DNA from: Chromatiales bacterium
GTDB taxonomy: Bacteria > Pseudomonadota > Gammaproteobacteria > Xanthomonadales > SZUA-36
Reading direction: 5' to 3'
Assembly: GCA_024640025.1 (NCBI GenBank)
Contig: JAHEFT010000007.1
Location: forward strand, 1 to 47,151
DNA: 47,151 nt
Below are positions 18,611 to 24,490 of this stretch, piece by piece (within the stretch, counting starts at the first letter, position 1; every line of letters starts with the position of its first letter). Below the pieces are notes generated by a model. That model did not search any database, was not told where the DNA came from, and was given only the letters and a program-made list of their open reading frames with translations. Both the position numbers and the translations under genes were made by a program.

Positions 18611-19030
18611 TCACCGCAACAGGGCATCCGGCACAAAAGGATCCGGAAGGTATTCAGACGGGGTCCACGACCGCGTTTCATCGCCGTCGCAACATGACAC
18701 AACCAGCGAGTCCGCGGCCATCAACTCGTGCATGACCTGCCGGCAGGCGCCGCAGGGCGAGTGAGCCGTCTGGCCGGGCGTATAAATCAACAGGGTCGTC
18801 AGGCTGCCTGGTGCGGCGCCGTCACAGACCGCTGCGGTCAAAGCGGATCTTTCCGCACACTGCGTCAGCCCGAAGGATGCGTTCTCGACGTTGCAGCCCC
18901 TGTAAACCCTGCCGGCTTCGCTGATGACCGCGGCGCCCACCCTGAATTGACTGTAAGGCGAATAGGACCTTCCGGCCGCTGTTTTGGCATGCGGCTCCAA
19001 CCGGATGATTGCAGCTTCGTGACGTGACAT
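18611..19030 (-). CDS. cdd: cytidine deaminase
   Basis: CNVENASFGLTQCAERSA; SPCGACRQVMHE. Confidence 0.95.
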   Translation of the reverse strand: MSRHEAAIIRLEPHAKTAAGRSYSPYSQFRVGAAVISEAGRVYRGCNVENASFGLTQCAERSALTAAVCDGAAPGSLTTLLIYTPGQTAHSPCGACRQVMHELMAADSLVVSCCDGDETRSWTPSEYLPDPFVPDALLR

Positions 19031-19031
19031 T

Positions 19032-20354
19032 TTACATCCCTCCCTGGACCCTGGAGTGGATCACGGGTGAATTCCTGCCCGGCTCGGATCCGACTTTAAA
19101 CCCGCATTTAAGCTGGGTCGCTGCATGTTCCCAACGGTCCTCGTTCGAAGCGTGAATGACGGCGAGCGGCGTGGCAGAATCCACCTCGCAGCCAATCCCG
19201 GCGATATCCGTAATCCCGACCGACGGGTCAATCGTGTCCTCCGCCCGTTGCCTCCCGCCGCCGAGGCTCACAACTGTCGAGCCTACGACCCTGGTGTGGA
19301 TCGAAACAATGAACCCACTGGTATCGGCAAACACGGGGCGGATGACCGGTGCCGCGGGTAAAAATTTTTCCGGCTCCTCGATCAAGCCAGCCGGGCCACC
19401 CTGTGCGGCAACCATCCTTGAAAACTGTTCGGCCGCCCGCCCGGTGTCGAGTGAATTTATCACCATCTCGTTTGCTTCTGTCGCGCTCCCGGCCAGGCCG
19501 CCGAGCTGCAGCAATTCACCGGACAGGGCAACCACAACGGAGAAAAGGCGATCATTGCGTCGCTCGCCGCGCAGAAAACGGATGGCTTCCAGCACTTCCA
19601 GTGCATTACCGGCCGACCACGACAGCGGCTGATCCATGTCGGTCACCAGCGCTTCGCACGGCAGGCCGGCCTCGTTGGCCACCGCGCAGATTTCCCCGGC
19701 CAGTTTCAAGGCATCTGCCGGCTCCGGCGTGAAGGCGCCCGAACCACATTTAATGTCCATGATCAATGCATCCAGACCTTCCGCCAGTTTCTTGGAAAGA
19801 ATGGATGAAATGATCAGGGGCGTGGATGCGACCGTAGCGGTCACATCACGCACCGCATAAATTCGCAGATCTGCGCTGGCAAGCTCACTGGTCTGGCCGA
19901 TGATGGCGATGCGATGTTGCCGAACCAATTGTTGAAATTGTTCGATACCGGGGCGGGAGTTGAATCCGGGGATACTCTCCAGCTTGTCCAGTGTGCCGCC
20001 GGTATGCCCCAGGCCGCGCCCGGAAATCATCGGCACATAGGCGCCACAGGAAGCCACAATGGGGCCGAGCAACAGGCTCACCATGTCGCCCACGCCCCCG
20101 GTCGAATGCTTGTCCAGAACCGGCCCGTCCAGCCCCTCCCAGGAAAGCACTCTGCCGCTGTCTCTCATGGCCAGGGTTAACGCCATTTGTTCACCCTGGT
20201 TCATACCCCTGAACCAGGTGGCCATGGTGAACGCGGCAATCTGGGCATCCGTCACCTGGCCACTGGTAATACCTGCAACGAAGGAACGGATCTCCTCTGT
20301 TCCCAGTTCCAGTCCATCACGTTTTCGCAGGATGAGTTCTTCAGCCAGGTGCAT
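19032..20354 (-). CDS. deoA: thymidine phosphorylase
   Basis: DKHSTGGVGDMVSLLLGPIVASCGAYVPMISGRGLGHTGGTLDKLE; start at internal Met MHLAEELILRKRDG. Confidence 0.95.
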   Translation of the reverse strand: MHLAEELILRKRDGLELGTEEIRSFVAGITSGQVTDAQIAAFTMATWFRGMNQGEQMALTLAMRDSGRVLSWEGLDGPVLDKHSTGGVGDMVSLLLGPIVASCGAYVPMISGRGLGHTGGTLDKLESIPGFNSRPGIEQFQQLVRQHRIAIIGQTSELASADLRIYAVRDVTATVASTPLIISSILSKKLAEGLDALIMDIKCGSGAFTPEPADALKLAGEICAVANEAGLPCEALVTDMDQPLSWSAGNALEVLEAIRFLRGERRNDRLFSVVVALSGELLQLGGLAGSATEANEMVINSLDTGRAAEQFSRMVAAQGGPAGLIEEPEKFLPAAPVIRPVFADTSGFIVSIHTRVVGSTVVSLGGGRQRAEDTIDPSVGITDIAGIGCEVDSATPLAVIHASNEDRWEHAATQLKCGFKVGSEPGRNSPVIHSRVQGGM

Positions 20355-20428
20355 GCAGAGTCCTACCGATTTGCCTTTTCCTCGTTTCGAGTCGTGACTA
20401 CCAACTGCATCATAAAGAAACGCGGCGC

Positions 20429-21313
20429 CTATTGCTTCAGAATGGAACCACGCTCGGCCAGCGAACGGCATTTTGCGGGGTCGATATCAACCTTTGGACC
20501 GCCCGGTTCATAACAGGAACACCGCCCGCTGTCCTGCGAGAAGGCGCATATCAGGGATGCCTCGCGTATTTCCTGCTTGGTTTTCCTGCTTCCATCCGGG
20601 TGAAACAATTCAGGGGCTGCCTTTTCTGCATTCCGCTCCCCAAGCGTTTCCACCAGCCCGCTAACCTCATCCCGAAAGGCAAAATAGGTTCCGGCAAACA
20701 AAACCACGAGCAGAGCGACCTGCAACCATCGCCACTTGTGGATAGCCGCCCCACCGAAGGGCTGGACTCGCGCTGATTCGATCATCTTGAGGATCCGCGC
20801 GGCCTGTTCCTCATCAAGCAGCGGCTGGGCCTTTTTGCGCATATACGCCAGCAGCTTTTCCGGTGCTACGACCCGCGCCGGCATCACTGTCCTGAAGCCC
20901 CTGTGGCCCAGCAGGACGAGCACAGGATGAATGGCCTTTGCAGGGACTTTCAGGATGTTCAGCAGGGCTTCCACCTGTAAGCTGTTCTTGTGCAGGGGGT
21001 TTTCCATGCGGGTGAAGCGGCCCCAGCGATATTGTTTCCAACGTTCCTGGAATTCTCCGCCGGACACCCAGCCCCGGGCGTGCTGGCTCTCGATCACGAA
21101 GACACCAAACCGGGAAACGACGACATGGTCGATATGCACCGTGCCGCCGCCCGAGGGCACGGTCACGTCGTTGAGAACGGTGTAGCGGTTTTTTTCAAGC
21201 CCGGCGGAAAGAATCCGCCGGACCCGGGTTTCGGCAATTTCGCCCCGGAACCGGGGCGATGCAAGAAAAGCGATCAGCAATACAAGCGGGACAATCCAGA
21301 ATCCGTGAACCAT
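20429..21313 (-). CDS. NERD (nuclease-related) domain membrane protein with Cys-containing C-terminal tail
   Basis: HIDHVVVSRFGVFVIESQHARGWVSGG core; TM helices at N-term and WLQVALLVVLFAGTYFAF; tail ICAFSQDSGRCSCYEPGGPKVDIDPAKC. Confidence 0.82.
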   Translation of the reverse strand: MVHGFWIVPLVLLIAFLASPRFRGEIAETRVRRILSAGLEKNRYTVLNDVTVPSGGGTVHIDHVVVSRFGVFVIESQHARGWVSGGEFQERWKQYRWGRFTRMENPLHKNSLQVEALLNILKVPAKAIHPVLVLLGHRGFRTVMPARVVAPEKLLAYMRKKAQPLLDEEQAARILKMIESARVQPFGGAAIHKWRWLQVALLVVLFAGTYFAFRDEVSGLVETLGERNAEKAAPELFHPDGSRKTKQEIREASLICAFSQDSGRCSCYEPGGPKVDIDPAKCRSLAERGSILKQ

Positions 21314-21341: not shown

Positions 21342-22061
21342 TTAACCACACTTGGAGTAGCCACAGGACAGGCAGGTGGCGCAGTTGTCCATGATGATGA
21401 CGGCCTTGGTATGGCACTTGTTGCACAGCGTGGCCGAAGTAGGGTAACTGGAATCTGAATCTGATTCCGCGTTTCGTTTCACATCAGAAGCAACGGCCTC
21501 GGCACGTTTTTGATCGAGAATGAGCTGCTGTTGCTGGGAAAGCTCTTCTTTCTCCATCAGGCCGATCTTTTGCAGGTGGTGCTCAATCACGGCGCCAATA
21601 TCAGCAATGATGGAGGGCATGAACTTGCCGCCGGGTTTGAAATAACCGCCACGTGGGTCGAAAACCGCTTGTAATTCTTCGGCCAGGAAGGTCACGTCGC
21701 CACCCTTTCTGAATACGGCGGACATGAGCCGGGTCAGAGCCACGATCCACTGGAAGTGGTCCATGTTTTTCGAATTGATAAATATTTCGAACGGCCGGCG
21801 TTGTTCATGCTCGGTACCCTGGTTCAGGATGATGTCATTGATCGTGACATACATCGCGTGATCATCCAGGGGGGTCTTGATCTTGTAGGTAGAGCCTTCG
21901 AGCGCTTCCATGCCTTCCGGCCTGAGGACGCGTTCGGTCATACGGATGATTTTGGCTTTTTGACGCCCCTGGCCGTCGTTCGCGGCTTCTTCCCGGGCAG
22001 CAGTTTCTTCTTCCTTTACGACTTCGTAGCCTACGATTTTTGTGGCGATCTTGATACTCAT
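21342..22061 (-). CDS. nrdJb: class II (B12-dependent) ribonucleotide reductase, C-terminal subunit NrdJb
   Basis: YKIKTPLDDHAMYVTINDI...PFEIFINSKNMDHFQWIVALTRLMSAVFRKGG; Cys-rich C-term CNKCHTKAVIIMDNCATCLSCGYSKCG. Confidence 0.92.
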   Translation of the reverse strand: MSIKIATKIVGYEVVKEEETAAREEAANDGQGRQKAKIIRMTERVLRPEGMEALEGSTYKIKTPLDDHAMYVTINDIILNQGTEHEQRRPFEIFINSKNMDHFQWIVALTRLMSAVFRKGGDVTFLAEELQAVFDPRGGYFKPGGKFMPSIIADIGAVIEHHLQKIGLMEKEELSQQQQLILDQKRAEAVASDVKRNAESDSDSSYPTSATLCNKCHTKAVIIMDNCATCLSCGYSKCG

Positions 22062-22342
22062 TACATTAATCCTTCACTCGATCTTCTCATTTCCAGGAAA
22101 CATAAAAGAGGTGTACATCCTTGTACACAACACCTCCGTAAAGTTTGACGGAACCCAAAACTTCCCTCGCCGTCACGTTATCCTTGTTTTGTTATTGTTA
22201 ACGTCCCTGCTGTTTGTAGATACATCCATGTACCGGAAACAATTCCTGTTGCTTCCATTCCGAAGGCTGACGCCTTCTCCCTTTTCCTCTCCGGGCGTTC
22301 TATCTGCTTGCCTTCCCTGTGCCGGCGTTATCCGCGCTGTTA
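22062..22342 (-). ncRNA. candidate structured GGA-rich RNA element (CsrA/RsmA-binding leader or sponge) in the nrdJa-nrdJb spacer
   Basis: About 16 GGA on the minus strand versus about 3 on plus; hairpins GTGTACA-AGGA-TGTACAC, TACA-TGGA-TGTA, GGAAGCAAC-AGGA-ATTGTTTCC. Confidence 0.4.
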
Positions 22343-24490
22343 TTAAAGTTTTCCGTAATATCCTTCTTTCAGAGCATCGAAGAGATTCGCCGCAGTATGC
22401 AGTTCACCGTCATATTCGATCTCTTCGTTACCGGCCACTTCCACGACTTCGCCGTCATCCAGAACAAAACGATATGTCGTGTTTTCCAGGTCTTTGTCCT
22501 TGACCAGTACACCCTGGAAGGCCTCAGGATTGAAGCGGAATGTCGTACACCCCTTCAGTTGTTTTTTATGGGCATAGGTATAAATATCCTTGAATTCCTC
22601 ATAGGGAAATTCGGTGGGCACGTTTGCTGTCTTTGAAATGGAAGAATCAATCCACTTCTGTGCCGCTGCCTGGATATCCACGTGTTCTTTTGGCAATACG
22701 TCTTCAGCCGTGATGAAATAATCCGGCAAGCGCGAAGCGTCATCCTGGGCGTAAGGCATGGCCGCGGGATTGATCAACACCCGGTAGGCCAGCAGCTCGT
22801 AGCTGAACACTTCGACTTTTTCCTTGGTCTTGCGCCCTTCCCGGATGACGTTCCGGCTGTAATGATGCGCAAAACTCGGTTCGATTCCATTTGACACGTT
22901 GTTCGCCAGCGAAAGGGAAATCGTACCCGTTGGCGCAATCGAAGTATGGTGGGTAAAACGGGCGCCTTCTTTTGCTAGCGCCTCCACCAGGTCAGGGGCG
23001 CATTCCGCGACCCTTTGCATGTAACGACTGTATTTTGCGAGCAGAACCTTTCCCGCGACCATGTCCCCCAACTTGTAGCCATCCGATTGCATTTCCGGAC
23101 GGCGGCGCAACATGTCGCCGGTCACTTCGAATTGCTCTTCCATGATCGGCGCCGGGCCTTTCTCCCGACTCAATTCGAGAGACTCTTTCCAACCGGCCAA
23201 CGCCATTTCGCGGGCGATCTTCTCCGTGAACTCCAGCGAGTCTTCCTGGCCGTATTTCATACCCATCATGGTCAGCGTTGAGCCGAGACCGAGAAATCCC
23301 ATACCATGGCGCCGCTTGCGGGAAATTTCATCACGCTGCTTGCCAAGCGGAAGTCCGTTGATTTCCACGACGTTATCAAGCATACGGGTGAAGATCCGCA
23401 CGACCTCGCGGTACTCGTCCCAGTTGAAGGCGGCCTCTTTGGTGAACGGGTTTGCGACAAAACGGGTCAGGTTCACCGAGCCGAGCAGGCATGCGCCATA
23501 AGGCGGCAGCGGCTGCTCTCCACAGGGATTTGTCGCCCGGATATTTTCGCAGAACCAGTTGTTGTTCATCTCGTTGATCCGGTCGATCATGATGAAGCCA
23601 GGTTCGGCAAAATCATAGGTCGATGACATGATCATGTCCCACATCCTGCGGGCCGGCACTGTCTTGTAAATGCGGCAGGCTACCAGCCCATCTTCCCGCT
23701 TGATGTACCCGCGGGTCTGGGGCCACTCGCGCCAGATGACCTGTTCCGGATCATTCAGATCGAAACCGCCCGACTCGTGTTCATTGATGGGGAAAGCCAG
23801 CGACCACCCGGCATTCTGCTCTACGGCTTGCATGAACTCATCGGTCACCAACAGGGAACAGTTGAACTGCCTCAGCCTGCCGTCCTCCCGCTTGGCGCGA
23901 ATAAAGTCCATCGCATCCGGGTGCCCCACTTCGAAGGTGGCCATCTGCGCGCCGCGGCGACCGCCGGCTGACGAGACGGTGAAACACATCTTGTCATAGA
24001 TGTCCATGAAACTGAGAGGACCGGAGGTGTATGCGCCGGCGCCGGAAACGTAAGCCCCCTTGGGACGCAGGGTTGAAAACTCGTAGCCGATTCCACAGCC
24101 CGCTTTGAGGGTCAGTCCAGCCTCGTGTACTTTCTCGAGGATGCCGTCCATGGAGTCGGTGATGGTTCCGGAAACCGTGCAGTTGATGGTGGAGGTTGCC
24201 GGCTTGTGGTGCAGTGCGCCTGCGTTACTGGTGATCCTGCCCGCCGGGATAGCGCCCCTGCGTAAGGCCCACAAAAATGACGTGTACCACTCCTCCTGCT
24301 TCGCCGGGGTGTCTTCAACTTCAGAAATGGCCTTCGCGACTCGTTTGTACGTGTCGTCGATGGTCTCGTCGATGATTTCCCCGTTTTTTGCCTTCAGCCG
24401 GTACTTTTTATCCCATATATCCAGGGAGGCGGCCTGGAAAGGAATGTCTTTGGAATCAGTGCCGATCGCCTCAACTTGCACGCTGTTCAT
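22343..24490 (-). CDS. nrdJa: class II (B12-dependent) ribonucleotide reductase, catalytic subunit NrdJa
   Basis: NPCGEQPLPPYGACLLGSVNLTRFV; SIAPTGTISLSLANNVSNGIEPSF. Confidence 0.96.
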   Translation of the reverse strand: MNSVQVEAIGTDSKDIPFQAASLDIWDKKYRLKAKNGEIIDETIDDTYKRVAKAISEVEDTPAKQEEWYTSFLWALRRGAIPAGRITSNAGALHHKPATSTINCTVSGTITDSMDGILEKVHEAGLTLKAGCGIGYEFSTLRPKGAYVSGAGAYTSGPLSFMDIYDKMCFTVSSAGGRRGAQMATFEVGHPDAMDFIRAKREDGRLRQFNCSLLVTDEFMQAVEQNAGWSLAFPINEHESGGFDLNDPEQVIWREWPQTRGYIKREDGLVACRIYKTVPARRMWDMIMSSTYDFAEPGFIMIDRINEMNNNWFCENIRATNPCGEQPLPPYGACLLGSVNLTRFVANPFTKEAAFNWDEYREVVRIFTRMLDNVVEINGLPLGKQRDEISRKRRHGMGFLGLGSTLTMMGMKYGQEDSLEFTEKIAREMALAGWKESLELSREKGPAPIMEEQFEVTGDMLRRRPEMQSDGYKLGDMVAGKVLLAKYSRYMQRVAECAPDLVEALAKEGARFTHHTSIAPTGTISLSLANNVSNGIEPSFAHHYSRNVIREGRKTKEKVEVFSYELLAYRVLINPAAMPYAQDDASRLPDYFITAEDVLPKEHVDIQAAAQKWIDSSISKTANVPTEFPYEEFKDIYTYAHKKQLKGCTTFRFNPEAFQGVLVKDKDLENTTYRFVLDDGEVVEVAGNEEIEYDGELHTAANLFDALKEGYYGKL

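Follow-up and report, generated by a model that had tools for sequence, protein, structure and literature searches.

A conserved candidate CsrA-sequestering RNA between the split ribonucleotide reductase genes nrdJa and nrdJb in an uncultured bacterial clade

A putative CsrA/RsmA sponge in the nrdJa–nrdJb spacer

The spacer between nrdJa and nrdJb in the window (the whole stretch of 47,151 nucleotides analysed here, from a Chromatiales bacterium) probably encodes an RNA that sequesters CsrA/RsmA and forms the 3' end of nrdJa transcripts. An earlier note on this DNA had proposed either a CsrA-binding leader of nrdJb or a sponge embedded in the nrdJ transcript. The embedded sponge is favoured here because the element is conserved in a clade, has a terminator at its 3' end, carries SELEX-type sites with changes at tolerated positions, and occurs together with a CsrA gene, while the leader has become the weaker option. 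The features are collected in Table 1.

The gene upstream of the candidate RNA, and thus its host, is nrdJa, whose product scored 573.9 bits with NCBIfam NrdJ_Z, over the cut-off, and matched Pfam Ribonuc_red_lgC. The gene downstream is nrdJb, whose product aligned to positions 592–759 of 759, the C-terminal end of the B12-dependent ribonucleotide reductase model NF006417, and matched Pfam TSCPD. According to the list of open reading frames, the spacer runs from the nrdJa stop to the nrdJb ATG (22062–22342) and measures exactly 281 nt, as previously delimited. On the same (minus) strand, a NERD-domain protein gene (20429–21313) lies directly 3' of nrdJb, and next come a gene for pyrimidine nucleoside phosphorylase (19032–20471) and an open reading frame (18611–19030) resembling cytidine deaminase; the stretch 18611–21313 looks like a nucleotide-salvage neighbourhood, the deaminase call having been made by eye. 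A search with one NrdR-type box pattern gave a single match, inside nrdJa, which was not above chance.

Table 1. Positions in the window of the nrdJ genes, the candidate RNA and its predicted elements
Feature	Positions	Strand	Description
nrdJa	22343..24490	(-)	715 aa; catalytic part of split class II (adenosylcobalamin-dependent) ribonucleotide reductase
Proposed RNA (nrdJa 3' UTR/intercistronic)	22104..22342	(-)	239 nt, 14 GGA; putative 5' end
5' GGA cluster, CGGAGAGGAAAAGGGA	22278..22293	(-)	GGAGAGGA kept in closest relatives
Short hairpin, GAAGGC-GUCA-GCCUUC	22262..22277	(-)	similar hairpins in L005 and L008; unclear in other genomes
Hairpin H1, GGAAGCAA/UUGUUUCC	22235..22256	(-)	stem 94% paired in six relatives, some compensatory changes
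Conserved core	22104..22234	(-)	covariance model R1; own match 130 bits, E 3.4e-26
Site 1, CsrA-type GUACAUGGAUGUA (ACANGGANGU)	22221..22233	(-)	SELEX consensus 11/12
Site 2 position, AGCAGGGACGU in this genome	22201..22211	(-)	ACACGGANGU in most relatives
Site 3, CAAGGA	22181..22186	(-)	predicted single-stranded; mostly CAGGGAU in relatives
Hairpin H3, stem UGACGG/CCGUCA	22146..22175	(-)	loop with GAGGGA; compensatory A-U/G-C and C-G/U-A
Site 4, GAGGGA in H3 loop	22163..22168	(-)	AGGGA invariant, 11/11
Intrinsic terminator, GGAGGUGU...ACACCUCUUUU	22104..22137	(-)	sense orientation
Site 5, terminator apical hairpin GUAC-AAGGAU-GUAC	22113..22126	(-)	ANGGAN hexaloop closed by AC/GU
AAGGA at nrdJb Shine–Dalgarno sequence	22070..22074	(-)	present in this genome
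nrdJb	21342..22061	(-)	239 aa; C-terminal part of split enzyme

The minus (coding) strand of the spacer holds 16 GGA against 3 TCC, which bears out the bias reported before, and 10 of the 16 are ANGGA. The accompanying chance expectation of 4–5 GGA was too low because the spacer is rich in purines and in G; shuffled sequences averaged 8.1 GGA with mononucleotide and 9.0 with dinucleotide shuffling. Sixteen GGA were reached in 4 of 1000 dinucleotide shuffles and ten ANGGA in none of 1000 (mean 3.0), so that both motifs occur above chance, as in the CsrA-sequestering class.

Conservation and distribution of the core

To describe the distribution of the element we searched with a covariance model built on its 131-nt core. 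Of the 39 family genomes, 11 gave a match, each a single copy, and in every case it lay in the nrdJa–nrdJb spacer. No further copies were found among 300 genomes at order level and 369 at class level, searched with stricter filters that can miss weak matches. The spacers of the relatives fell into two groups, with and without the element. Those of the 11 bearers, which could be aligned with each other, were mostly 277–362 nt long (521 in L032 and 157 in L018), and nearly all were rich in GGA with few TCC. Among the non-bearing family members, spacers that could be read were mostly 10–98 nt long, and L033 had a spacer of 238 nt without the element. The genomes G018, G019 and G034 (assemblies without nrdJb) and G004 (L010, in which the contig starts inside nrdJb) were uninformative.

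On a tree of NrdJa plus NrdJb, the bearers lay on one side of a branch with support of 81/75, and their distribution required one change as compared with 9.7 in shuffles, which makes a single origin the simplest reading and gives moderate support to the element having arisen once within one clade. The most basal bearer, L018, carries a short version, with only five GGA in its spacer, which counts against the sponge reading.

Mean identity in the core was 70%, as compared with 49% at the third codon positions of nrdJb. The 5' part of the spacer was 57% identical (49% when shuffled), and the part 3' of the terminator was at background (42% versus 40% when shuffled). Core lengths differ by non-multiples of three, indicating that the core is not coding. 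Conserved unpaired GGA columns were 0.954 identical versus 0.690 for other unpaired columns (Mann–Whitney p = 1e-4), and random triplets equalled the conservation of the GGA columns in 6 of 20000 draws. Conservation of the GGA loops in the nrdJ spacers of relatives, which had been named as a check on which the proposal could fail, was thus observed across the 11 bearing genomes. With its conservation, its terminator and its lengths, the core has the properties of a noncoding RNA that is conserved and ends at a defined 3' position.

The GGA-bearing spacers of the distant genomes at L103, L106, L109 and L112 were rejected as homologues, being without visible similarity to the element. L106 and L109 share a CCCCTCTCCCCCAGGGAGAGGG sequence that resembles a dispersed repeat. 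L112, from a Chromatiales MAG, is an apparently unrelated nrdJa–nrdJb spacer of 228 nt with 14 GGA versus 1 TCC, possibly an independent case or a repeat.

Hairpins, terminator and CsrA-type sites

All four hairpin sequences named in the earlier note were readable in the spacer, which as a whole had an only mildly unusual folding energy (z = -2.17). The hairpin ACGUUA...UAACGU is present in this genome and was not kept in relatives, where the neighbouring helix of H3 was conserved instead. The GAGGUG/CACCUC extension followed by CUUUU, described before as terminator-like, was both present and conserved in relatives: across the bearers the stem GGAGGUGU/ACACCUC is followed by 4–6 U, and L018 has a diverged stem-loop followed by UUUUU. 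The distance from this terminator to nrdJb ranged from 36 to 238 nt among the bearers, with 36–63 nt in 6 of the 11 and about 40 nt in this genome. Compensatory changes in H3 and the terminator amounted to three pairs and six cells versus 0.5 and 1.3 in shuffles, counts that are not probabilities because the sequences are related. In H1, covariation among six sequences was weak as compared with shuffles (43 of 500 for pairing and 172 of 500 for pairs changed on both sides), and the loop AGGA occurred in this genome and L005 only.

The CsrA consensus obtained by SELEX is RUACARGGAUGU, in which ACA and GGA are fully conserved; most of the selected ligands form a hexaloop with AC/GU pairing, and loops of the form ANGGAN are contacted by RsmE (PMC7652899). 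As claimed before, GUACAAGGAUGU (within 22113–22126) agrees with this consensus at 12 of 12 positions and GUACAUGGAUGU at 11 of 12. Sites of the type ACANGGANGU numbered two or three per element in 10 of the 11 genomes and one in L018, as compared with 0.004–0.018 in shuffles and none on the antisense strand. The GGA of site 3 was invariant in all 11 genomes. Against the sponge reading, only 1–4 GGA lay wholly within hairpin loops in each predicted minimum-energy structure.

Site 5, in the apical loop of the terminator, read GUAC-ANGGAN-GUAC in 11 of 11 genomes, which is the architecture of a high-affinity site (an ANGGAN hexaloop closed by AC/GU). Its variation was confined to the two N (A/G/C and U/C/A), the positions that CsrA tolerates, as would be expected if CsrA binding, and not the stem alone, is kept. 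The GGA at the nrdJb Shine–Dalgarno sequence, also pointed out before, is present here and was not conserved across the clade.

Further hairpins were seen in individual relatives. L023 and L032 have, between the terminator and nrdJb, a second similar hairpin (approximately AUCGCCGAUCACARGGAUGUAUCGGCGAU) with a SELEX-like CsrA site, and at offset 45 of the L023 spacer a terminator-type hairpin with GUACAAGGACGUACACCU recurs at the site-2 position, as if duplicated.

CsrA, promoter and Rfam searches

A csrA homologue, on which the proposal had been said to depend, is encoded in this genome, with a product of 66 aa (NCBIfam CsrA, 103 bits, over the cut-off), and CsrA was found in 31 of the 39 family genomes, several of which are incomplete. 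A UvrY/GacA-like regulator is also encoded, at 245 bits, below the cut-off of 280. The bearing loci contained no GacA box (TGTAAG-N6-CTTACA-like), no sigma-70-like promoter for the element was found or conserved, and an embedded promoter, sought as reduced synonymous change at the 3' end of nrdJa, left no extra constraint there. Independent Gac-driven synthesis is therefore unsupported, and the promoter of their own and GacA upstream activating sequence that mark the Gac-controlled RsmX/Y/Z were not found for this element.

The Rfam comparison suggested in the earlier note came out negative, as none of the CsrA-sponge families (CsrB, CsrC, RsmX, RsmY, RsmZ and RsmV) reached its gathering score in the window, the spacer or the relatives. 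The RsmZ model RF00166 gave weak matches below the cut-off in the 39 family genomes and likewise in control genomes. The RsmV model (RF04320) gave a weak full-length match of 15.4 bits (E 0.041 for 601 bases searched), far below its gathering score of 100; since it was weak and was not seen in relatives, we did not use it as evidence. On these searches, the element is homologous to no Rfam family and should not be called CsrB or RsmZ. A search of open-access text found nothing linking nrdJ, CsrA and an sRNA.

Alternative roles of the spacer

In Pseudomonas aeruginosa, class II ribonucleotide reductase function needs both polypeptides (PMC4520616), so a terminator between nrdJa and nrdJb invites a role in cis. 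Where the terminator stands 36–63 nt before nrdJb, there is little room for an nrdJb promoter, and nrdJb probably depends on read-through; moreover, the apical loop of the terminator is itself a near-ideal CsrA-type site. CsrA bound to the nascent spacer could alter the terminator (by attenuation or antitermination), RNA stability or nrdJb translation, and would set the NrdJa:NrdJb ratio, an effect that can coexist with sponging. Such control, the main rival of the sponge, is conceivable but not likely, as the stretch that separates the terminator from nrdJb is unconserved and variable in length, the Shine–Dalgarno GGA is not kept, and the many sites are a long way 5' of the nrdJb start codon. 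The same variable distance and lack of conservation make the nrdJb leader the weaker option, and the unconserved leader and Shine–Dalgarno region speak against ordinary translational repression. It is also doubtful that the operon holds a dual-use switch, in which the terminator loop serves as the sponge's final CsrA site, transcription would yield either the complete sponge or nrdJb mRNA, and CsrA would bias the choice; if true, deoxynucleotide synthesis would be tied to the global Csr state.

The element might instead be a conserved sRNA of another kind (3'-UTR or base-pairing), or might bind another protein or ligand in cis, with incidental GGA repeats. CsrA binding leaves the AAUAAUAAUAAAA linker and the conserved GGGWACC at the end of the H3 loop unexplained, and these would fit such a role, but we regard it as improbable because conservation is focused on GGA together with the ACA/GU flanks specific to SELEX, changes fall at the two positions that CsrA tolerates, and the element matched no Rfam riboswitch or sRNA family.

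A dispersed hairpin repeat family, the main alternative in the earlier note, was rejected for this genome, because BLAST against the 2.9-Mb assembly (completeness 82%) found the spacer in a single copy and because two of the three occurrences of TACANGGANGTA in the 2.9 Mb lie in the spacer (the third is in a long open frame). The hairpin pattern was not in excess in this genome, and the many copies of a REP/BIME family were not found. That such a repeat, with GGA loops by accident, landed in the spacer is very improbable: dispersed GTACANGGANGTAC hairpins do occur in some sister genomes that lack the nrdJ element (7 in G005 versus 0 in a reversed control), but these have other flanks, and the element occurs once per bearer (by BLAST in its own genome and by the covariance model), is syntenic in 11 genomes and is conserved over about 130 nt, more than a hairpin.

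The other GTACANGGANGTAC matches in sister genomes were assigned to a different dispersed repeat or to coding sequence. The repeat loci (L159-L165, L173, L176 and L178-L183, in G005, G036, G028, G017, G023 and G010) often lie just 3' of tRNA genes or gene ends, and in some of them two ANGGAN hexaloops stand in tandem, as in L176 (GUACAUGGAUGUAC...GCACAAGGAUGUGC). They may be ordinary REP-like repeats or CsrA decoys.

Comparison with known CsrA antagonists and proposed mechanism

RNAs that antagonize CsrA are well described in a few groups of gammaproteobacteria, but elsewhere they are difficult to detect by homology. The element resembles CsrB/CsrC and RsmX/Y/Z in its arrays of GGA in hairpin loops and linkers, its intrinsic terminator and its similar GGA density, and differs from them in giving no covariance-model match above threshold; RsmX/Y/Z, in addition, have GacA-dependent promoters of their own (PMC4950607). 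Closer in position are sponges from mRNA 3' ends. RsmW of P. aeruginosa, which binds RsmA, has seven GGA and is apparently processed from the PA4570 3' UTR, has no promoter of its own and is not activated by GacA (PMC4950607). The element is alike in its proposed mRNA 3'-UTR position and in that no Gac promoter was found, the sequence comparison being an Rfam scan only, and is unlike it in host gene and position. RsmU (sRX061) of Xanthomonas campestris is processed from the comEA 3' UTR, binds RsmA in vitro and in vivo, and has no known Rfam homologue (PMC7694677). Its host shares a broad order (Xanthomonadales/Lysobacterales) with the relatives of the element, and the two are similar in mRNA 3'-UTR position and in belonging to no Rfam family, a likeness by description and not by sequence. 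RsmU differs in its host gene, does not sit inside an operon between the two parts of a single enzyme, and has only 3–4 GGA, mutation of which did not abolish activity (PMC7694677).

The position of our element, in sense orientation downstream of nrdJa and ended by a terminator, fits that of a 3'-UTR-derived sponge. On sequence evidence, it would function as a member of the CsrA-sponge class, and the candidate is a new clade-specific RNA at a new location, between the two halves of one enzyme. The sequence, its conservation and single-clade distribution, the sites, the terminator pattern and the presence of CsrA are observations; from them we infer the following course of transcription, processing, CsrA binding, titration and read-through. 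RNA polymerase leaving nrdJa would cross the GGA-rich, hairpin-studded stretch and, a good part of the time, halt at the intrinsic terminator, some 40 nt short of nrdJb. The 3' end of the RNA would then carry the CsrA sites, namely ACANGGANGU, CAAGGA/CAGGGA, GAGGGA and the ANGGAN terminator loop closed by GUAC/GUAC. This RNA might stay on the nrdJa mRNA or, more likely, be freed by cleavage as an RNA of about 130–240 nt; in either form it would titrate CsrA dimers off their mRNA targets, and nrdJb would be expressed from read-through.

The element offers a concrete, conserved sponge candidate in an uncultured clade, without a match to a known family, and would extend the class of sponges from mRNA 3' ends exemplified by RsmW and RsmU. 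What is unusual in the candidate is its placement between the halves of one enzyme and a terminator loop that appears to double as a CsrA-type site. Because it apparently originated once, within a single clade, it can be used to study how such sponges arise. If the proposal is true, a sponge between the split ribonucleotide reductase genes would couple deoxynucleotide synthesis to the global control of carbon metabolism and lifestyle.
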